From positions 62,001 through 126,000 of the forward strand of contig JAOAPC010000018.1 in the NCBI GenBank assembly GCA_025462735.1: a stretch of 64,000 nucleotides of DNA. Reading direction: 5' to 3'. The translations under genes and the position numbers were made by a program. The first letter of the stretch is position 1, and every line of letters begins with the position of its first letter. The stretch comes from Acidobacteriaceae bacterium (GTDB lineage: Bacteria; Acidobacteriota; Terriglobia; Terriglobales; Acidobacteriaceae). Below the pieces are notes generated by a model, which saw only the letters and a program-made list of their open reading frames with translations, made no database searches and had not been told where the DNA came from. Positions 19,943-20,473 of this stretch are shown in pieces.

Positions 19943-20473
19943 ATGAACATAATGAAAAATCAGACAGAAACACTCAGCGTTGGTTCTCCCGCGCCACCTT
20001 TCACACTGCCCGCTGCGAATCGCAGCGGAAGCTTCTCCCTTGCCGATCTGATTTCTCGGGGCGCACTCCTCGTCGAGTTTCTGCGCGGCACCTGGTGACC
20101 GAACTGCCGCAAGCGCATGGCTCAGTTCGAGCCGCTCAAAGAACAGATCGAGCAACTCGGAGCCAGCTTGGTTTACGTCGCGGCCGAAAAAAGCGAAGGC
20201 GTTTGGAAGCCGGCGAAGTATCTCAGCGAGCATCCGAGTTCGTTCCCGTTCTTGCTAGACGAAGATCGTTCGGTGACAAAGGCATACGGGCTCTATCATG
20301 CCTTTGGACACGATGCCTTCCGCATTGCGCATCCGGCTACGCTGATCGTGGACCGGAGCGGGGTGGTTCAATATATCTACCGCGGAGAAAATCAGACCGA
20401 CCGCGCGCCGGTTGAGGAAGTGCTCGATGCGGTACGAAAAATTCAGGATCCAACCCGAACTCAGCCCGCCTAA
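19943..20473 (+). CDS. Peroxiredoxin/thioredoxin-fold selenoprotein (in-frame UGA = Sec52)
   Basis: Read through one in-frame TGA (20096-20098), this is a 176-residue AhpC/TSA-like protein. Before the [22 protein letters not shown], then [10 protein letters not shown]; after it: [44 protein letters not shown] and [22 protein letters not shown]. The TGA falls exactly where this fold has its catalytic cysteine, giving a U-x-x-C centre (Sec52, Cys55). A SECIS-like hairpin starts two bases after the TGA. TGA is the ordinary stop of neighbouring genes, so general reassignment is excluded. It likely reduces peroxides or disulfides in the cytoplasm. Start: ATG 19943 (GGAG two bases before) or in-frame ATG 19952 (spacer 11). 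A pseudogene or sequencing error is the alternative, less likely given intact reading on both sides. No selABCD genes are in view. Confidence 0.85.
20096..20129 (+). promoter_or_regulatory. UGA codon with bacterial SECIS-like hairpin
   Basis: The TGA at 20096-20098 is followed by a perfect 7-bp stem: CGAACTG (20100-20106) pairs with CAGTTCG (20123-20129). Inside it, AGC (20112-20114) can pair with GCT (20120-20122), leaving an apical loop GCATG that begins with G, and a 5' internal bulge. Position just after the UGA and a G early in the apical loop agree with known bacterial SECIS elements bound by SelB. This is read by eye; no folding energy was computed. Confidence 0.7.

Follow-up and report, generated by a model that had tools for sequence, protein, structure and literature searches.

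A redoxin gene of Acidobacteriaceae with a conserved in-frame UGA, predicted to encode a UxxC selenoprotein

We analyzed a window, by which we mean the whole 64,000-nucleotide stretch of DNA from an Acidobacteriaceae genome, and found that positions 19943-20473 most probably encode one redox enzyme with selenocysteine (Sec) inserted at UGA 20096-20098. We give this sequence-derived reading a probability of about 0.96. A preliminary description had proposed that this place hides a selenoprotein of the peroxiredoxin/thioredoxin-like group with a UxxC motif, and its proposal is supported by homologues that keep the TGA and by the Sec machinery of the genome. At the level of sequence, the UGA, its conservation, a downstream RNA hairpin, the machinery, and the predicted fold of the protein could all be established. 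The features of the locus are as follows.

19943-20473, plus strand: predicted redoxin gene for a UxxC selenoprotein, with read-through of the TGA; 176 residues and a TAA stop codon
ATG at 19952, plus strand: candidate alternative start of the redoxin gene; several homologues begin at the same position
20096-20098, plus strand: TGA codon predicted to be read as Sec, residue 52; TGA in 25 of 25 homologous genes, this one included
20105-20107, plus strand: TGC codon for Cys55, the second residue of UxxC; Cys in 33 of 33 rows of alignment A3
18455-19741, minus strand: enolase gene, divergent neighbor; beside the redoxin gene in 11 of 26 loci, among them the Cys orthologue L040 (flanks of just 1.5 kb in most loci)
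20478-22706, minus strand: glycosyl hydrolase family 57 gene, convergent neighbor; beside the redoxin gene in 8 of the same 26 loci

The redoxin gene and its homologues

As the preliminary description had stated, an in-frame TGA lies inside an otherwise open thioredoxin-fold gene: the TGA at 20096-20098, in the motif context LRGTW-U-PNC, is the sole interruption of the frame at 19943-20473. The read-through protein matched the Pfam families Redoxin (84.9 bits, 6e-24) and AhpC-TSA (75.2 bits), exceeding the curated cut-offs of 26.6 and 26 bits, respectively, and its W-U-P-N-C site carries the UxxC motif of Prx-like/redoxin selenoproteins (PF00578/PF08534). The truncated gene call predicted to start at 20117 corresponds to an existing ATG open reading frame at 20117-20473 (118 aa). 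Within the window, 14 TGA codons are preceded by 40 or more codons that include a start and followed by 90 or more open codons. Since frame continuity alone is thus no better than chance, the case must rest on homology and RNA structure, and homology across the TGA together with the comparative RNA evidence for a hairpin at 20119-20133 goes far beyond chance. We saw no functional link between the redoxin, the enolase, and the glycosyl hydrolase family 57 protein.

Homologues of the redoxin were detected in 9 of 396 genomes of the phylum (E<=1e-30) and in 21 of 399 genomes of the class (E<=1e-40), thresholds that omit more distant redoxin members, possibly Cys forms. Each count includes the window's own genome, and the in-frame TGA was present in all 9 and all 21 matches. 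Five genomes are common to the two lists, resulting in a total of 25 genomes from several families. Homologues aligning across the TGA, which the preliminary description had named as a test of its reading, were therefore found, with TGA kept at the codon for residue 52. All 25 genes encode RGTW-U around the TGA and a Cys three residues later, and the residue following Sec is Pro in 24 homologues and Lys in one (L075). In this last gene UKNC replaces UPNC (L075:1645-1656), with the SECIS hairpin intact. We detected no frameshifts or other stops between the TGA and the final stop in the 25 homologous frames, several of which use TGA as their final stop codon. Upstream and downstream of the TGA alike, differences from three relatives fell mostly on the third base of codons.

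A contig scan returned 24 loci with TGC or TGT at the Sec codon, as its pattern required; the query was a single Cys-containing peptide pattern, so that only Cys forms could be returned and missing TGA forms carry no meaning. All 24 Cys loci entered the hairpin count described below, and 9 entered the protein alignment, of which 8 remain in A3 (L047 was dropped for a stop inside the match range). In accordance with a selenoprotein gene, the in-frame TGA column aligns with Cys of L040 and of other Cys loci. In two of the Cys loci, from two Brevibacillus genomes (L043 and L044), the redoxin frame continues into a long C-terminal part that by eye resembles the signaling region of methyl-accepting chemotaxis proteins.

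The nearest Cys locus, L040 (TGC), encodes a protein with 57-58% identity to the window protein and adjoins the same enolase gene, the enolases sharing 77% identity. In the tree, L040 fell within a well-supported group of 14 rows, 13 of them Sec forms, without a fixed position among them, and the Sec/Cys label needed at least three changes, two of which are forced by supported branches. We did not detect Sec machinery in the genome of L040 (G748; completeness not given), where the best of all scored candidates for SelB reached E 1.5e-27, under our cut-off, and where no tRNA-Sec was found among the 150 of 502 candidates scored, the best match to the tRNA-Sec model being a tRNA-Ser. Thus, the protein is an orthologue that switches between Sec and Cys, its Cys form occurring in a genome in which machinery was not detected.

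Selenocysteine machinery in TGA-bearing genomes

The preliminary description had made its reading depend on the presence of Sec machinery, and selA, selB, selD, and tRNA-Sec were all found in the window's genome (4.36 Mb, 24 contigs, 97% complete). We detected selA with 543.7 bits summed over two pieces of one frame, selB with 374.7 bits, selD with 359.2 bits over two pieces, and a tRNA-Sec with anticodon UCA with 69.9 bits. The tRNA-Sec sits on a contig other than that of the window, and searches of the window itself with Rfam and ARAGORN gave no matches. ARAGORN typing was applied to the best tRNA-Sec-model match of each genome. The selD gene of this genome (L027, contig C18) has its own in-frame TGA, in AGUASKL, and is by its sequence a selenoprotein gene as well; a UxxK motif is tabulated for Sec-containing SelD (PMC13188914).

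We defined selB as present when the SelB model matched at E<=1e-60, with three candidates scored per genome in the phylum and class scans. By this measure, selB was present in 256 of the 396 genomes of the phylum and in 286 of the 399 of the class. Among genomes with the redoxin, selB was present in 9 of 9 phylum matches and 20 of 21 class matches (24 of 25 overall). The class-wide association between redoxin and selB is modest (Fisher p 0.012) because selB is common in the class. For G733, a 99% complete genome of the window's genus with a TGA redoxin, selB was not found when all candidates were scored, and the best SelB-model match was EF-Tu. This genome (L074, L097, L085) contains a tRNA-Sec with anticodon UCA (69 bits, with 150 of 874 candidates scored), and selB is likely to be missing because of a gap in the assembly or because it was lost recently.

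RNA structure downstream of the TGA

Two mutually exclusive folds were considered for the RNA following the UGA.

20119-20133, plus strand: candidate bacterial SECIS hairpin; 20119-20123 pairs with 20129-20133 around the loop AGUUC at 20124-20128
20100-20129, plus strand: 7-bp stem, 20100-20106 with 20123-20129; weaker comparative support

Applied to the first 45 nt of the 25 genes counted from the UGA (alignment A2), RNAalifold identified a hairpin in columns 24-38, equivalent to 20119-20133 of the window, with a 5-bp stem and a 5-nt loop that starts after 25 nt from the UGA. In the alignment 96% of the cells were paired, with changes on both sides in three of the five pairs, and slid versions of the hairpin were at most 50.4% paired. 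None of 500 shuffles scored as high on four of five measures, and 54 of 500 did so on the fifth. All five pairs form in 22 of the 25 TGA genes, whereas 1000 synonymous randomizations averaged 1.3 such genes and never exceeded 6 of 25. Of the TGA genes, 24 of 25 form at least four of the pairs, versus none of the 24 Cys genes, which mostly encode more distant proteins. Codon choice in the hairpin was similarly constrained: the third base is T in 21 of 24 Ala/Thr codons at codon +8 (11.5% elsewhere in these genes), CAG accounts for 24 of 24 Gln codons at +9 (66% elsewhere), and GAG accounts for 23 of 23 Glu codons at +11 (45% elsewhere). The loop consists of AGUU or AGGU and one further base in 24 of the 25 genes.

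Bacterial SECIS elements are described as having a loop of 3-9 nt, a stem of 4-16 bp, and 16-37 nt between the UGA and the loop, and the bacterial model places a G within the first two loop positions (PMC13188914). The hairpin at 20119-20133 lies within these limits of loop, stem, G, and spacing, the energy criterion aside. On this comparative evidence, the conserved hairpin is most likely the SECIS of the redoxin gene. We also observed two variations among the homologues. Thr replaces Ala at codon +8 in L079-L082, accompanied by a compensating A-U pair in the hairpin. In L039 the hairpin is absent at the usual place, and an alternative fold nearer the UGA has 7 bp, a 3-nt loop, and an energy of -11.8 kcal/mol, calculated for a segment of 19 nt selected by eye.

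The perfect 7-bp stem noted in the preliminary description exists, with one base between it and the TGA, but the comparative data favor the hairpin at 20119-20133 over this stem as the SECIS. Because the 3' arm of the 7-bp stem covers the hairpin loop, the two folds exclude each other. We rejected the 7-bp stem as the main SECIS since it covaries weakly, 11 of the 25 genes being unable to form pair 6-33 and shuffles reaching its value on every measure (36-156 of 500), and since its 5' arm is without synonymous constraint, randomized 5' arm codons reaching the observed pairing in 159 of 1000 trials. Against this rejection, the stem has 154 pairs in the alignment compared with a maximum of 150 in 1000 synonymous randomizations, and the observed pairing was never reached (0 of 1000) when codon +10 was randomized. 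This excess presumably stems from the 3' side that the 7-bp stem has in common with the hairpin. Folding of the window sequence by itself gave mixed results: the minimum-energy fold of the isolated 42-45 nt is the 7-bp stem, the minimum-energy fold of 91 nt contains the hairpin at 20119-20133, and the centroid of the latter contains neither. The 45 nt after the TGA folded no better than shuffles when the window was considered alone (z -0.22), and energy z-scores of the single sequence are uninformative.

Predicted active site and relation to known families

AlphaFold2 modeling with the 33-row alignment and Cys in place of Sec produced a structure with a mean pLDDT of 92.0. Among the matches listed, the best solved structures were peroxiredoxins, and the top match by Foldseek and VIA-align was Bcp4 (3hjp; Z 23.3, rmsd 1.8, 156 residues). 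Profile scores were 96.5 bits for Bcp 2cx3 and 77.7 bits for ResA 3c71. The GTWCPHC site of ResA aligns exactly with the GTW-U-PNC motif. In the alignment to 2cx3, its motif Cys, which we take to be the peroxidatic Cys, falls on Cys55, a Ser falls on Sec52, and the Arg of KRA falls on Pro. Thus, the earlier placement of Sec at the catalytic Cys agrees with the first Cys of a ResA-like CxxC and disagrees with the peroxiredoxin alignment, in which the catalytic Cys corresponds to Cys55. Classical peroxiredoxins (TxxC or TxxU) are defined by Thr/Ser three residues before the catalytic Cys/Sec and by an active-site Arg. The window protein lacks this classical arrangement. A TxxU motif is listed for Prx selenoproteins (PMC13188914). 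Separately, we observed that Arg occupies the usual Pro place, the position of the peroxiredoxin Arg, in L079-L082, which belong to one family.

These alignments allow for a selenoprotein with a true peroxiredoxin mechanism, in which Cys55 is peroxidatic and Sec52 is its resolving partner. The best whole-length matches being of Bcp type (2cx3 and 3hjp), the alignment of the 2cx3 motif Cys with Cys55, and the Arg of L079-L082, which leaves the split between the two types of site not clean, are consistent with such a mechanism. Considering that Sec52 occupies the Thr/Ser place, that the family profile has Pro opposite the peroxiredoxin Arg, and that the motif equals that of ResA, we regard it as the less likely chemistry, albeit one to be taken seriously. 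The exact match to the ResA motif combined with the 2cx3 Cys on Cys55 favors instead ResA-like selenenylsulfide chemistry on a peroxiredoxin fold, and we consider oxidoreductase-type chemistry, either as a thiol-disulfide oxidoreductase or as a thiol-dependent peroxidase, to be somewhat more likely than not.

In our main reading, UGA 20096-20098 is most probably decoded by the genome's own SelA, SelB, SelD, and tRNA-Sec, with the SECIS hairpin at 20119-20133 within the coding sequence as the putative signal for Sec insertion. Sec52 and Cys55 may then act as the redox pair in GTW-U-P-N-C: the Sec selenolate would attack the substrate, Cys55 would resolve the Sec52 adduct as a selenenylsulfide, and a thioredoxin-like donor would reduce the selenenylsulfide. 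Actual Sec insertion, substrate, reductant, and reaction direction are steps that we infer from the features described above.

Three further explanations do not involve a selenoprotein, and we rejected them on the basis of the 25 homologous genes, the hairpin, and the machinery. Decoding of the TGA as another amino acid or general stop read-through, each independent of a Sec system, is very improbable: apart from the missing selB of G733 we found nothing in its favor, and it is opposed by the Sec machinery of the window's genome, Cys in the non-TGA homologues, a hairpin that matches bacterial SECIS elements, and the use of TGA as a final stop in homologues as well. A nonsense change from TGC to TGA that broke an ordinary CxxC redoxin could draw on the existence of Cys forms and on G733 as a TGA-bearing relative without detected selB. 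Such a pseudogene is less probable still, given the same TGA in all 25 genes, each from a different genome and together spanning several families, the conserved protein downstream, the third-position bias of the differences on both sides of the TGA, and the constraint on the hairpin. Finally, a sequencing or assembly error at 20096-20098 has a negligible chance with the same codon being TGA in 24 other genomes.

These findings imply that a whole redox enzyme is hidden by ordinary gene calling at this locus and, by the same logic, in its TGA-bearing relatives. The locus supplies an alignment of SECIS sequences from 25 genes that shows covariation, together with a natural comparison of Sec and Cys forms next to the same enolase, the Cys form occurring in a genome without detectable selB and tRNA-Sec. 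SECIS function and the costs and benefits of Sec versus Cys are therefore directly testable in one orthologous enzyme.

The acidobacterial redoxin is one more example of a selenoprotein type that has been described before. Tables in a 2008 marine survey (PMC2398784) and a 2026 review (PMC13188914) list Prx-like and redoxin selenoproteins with a UxxC motif, and Prx-like thiol:disulfide oxidoreductase selenoproteins appear in the tabulated results of a 2006 survey (PMC1794560). We found no description of this acidobacterial gene in the titles and abstract starts of the papers listed in our literature searches. Published passages report three known selenoprotein genes, unnamed there, for the acidobacterium Occallatibacter riparius (PMC12013277) and count four selenoproteins of three families in Acidobacteria (PMC1794560), so that single members of the redoxin group may already be known. 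None of the NCBIfam models among the matches listed reached its cut-off for the window protein. The best NCBIfam match by E-value was to the SelL-related redox proteins (NF040769, SelL_rel_redox; 52.2 bits, cut-off 120), and ResA PRK03147 (NF002854) gave 50.2 bits (cut-off 170). Both models matched 33 of 33 alignment rows at E<=0.001.

Relative to the Prx-like thiol:disulfide oxidoreductase selenoproteins (PF00578, UxxC/UxxU; "Prx-like 1" in GOS), the acidobacterial proteins have in common the Pfam domain, UxxC, and Cys/Sec pairs, as far as those proteins are tabulated. The published representative of that kind is WP_010940744.1, and the acidobacterial group appears to differ from the kind in the GTWUPNC surroundings of Sec and in a SECIS particular to it. 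Similarly, the tabulated Redoxin family selenoprotein (PF08534, UxxC; "Prx-like 3" in GOS) has Redoxin as best Pfam match and UxxC in common with the window protein. The published representative of this family is HEU0032618.1. In GOS, Prx-like 3 is listed with pfam08534 at an e-value over 0.001 only (PMC2398784), in contrast to 6e-24 for the window protein. We tentatively propose that GTWUPNC proteins may form an acidobacterial selenoprotein subfamily of their own, lacking a dedicated NCBIfam model, in which Sec predominates and Cys forms are exceptional. A Bcp-type fold would there be combined with a ResA-type site whose first residue is Sec, located where peroxiredoxins have Thr, possibly giving a selenol enzyme with mixed peroxidase/disulfide-reductase chemistry. 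With Bcp/PrxQ peroxiredoxins the window protein shares the fold and a whole-length profile match, but in its motif Sec takes the position of Thr/Ser, and Pro that of Arg. With ResA it shares a GTWCPxC site that aligns residue by residue, but Sec replaces the first Cys and, by eye, neither a signal peptide nor the N-terminal membrane anchor is evident in the redoxin.
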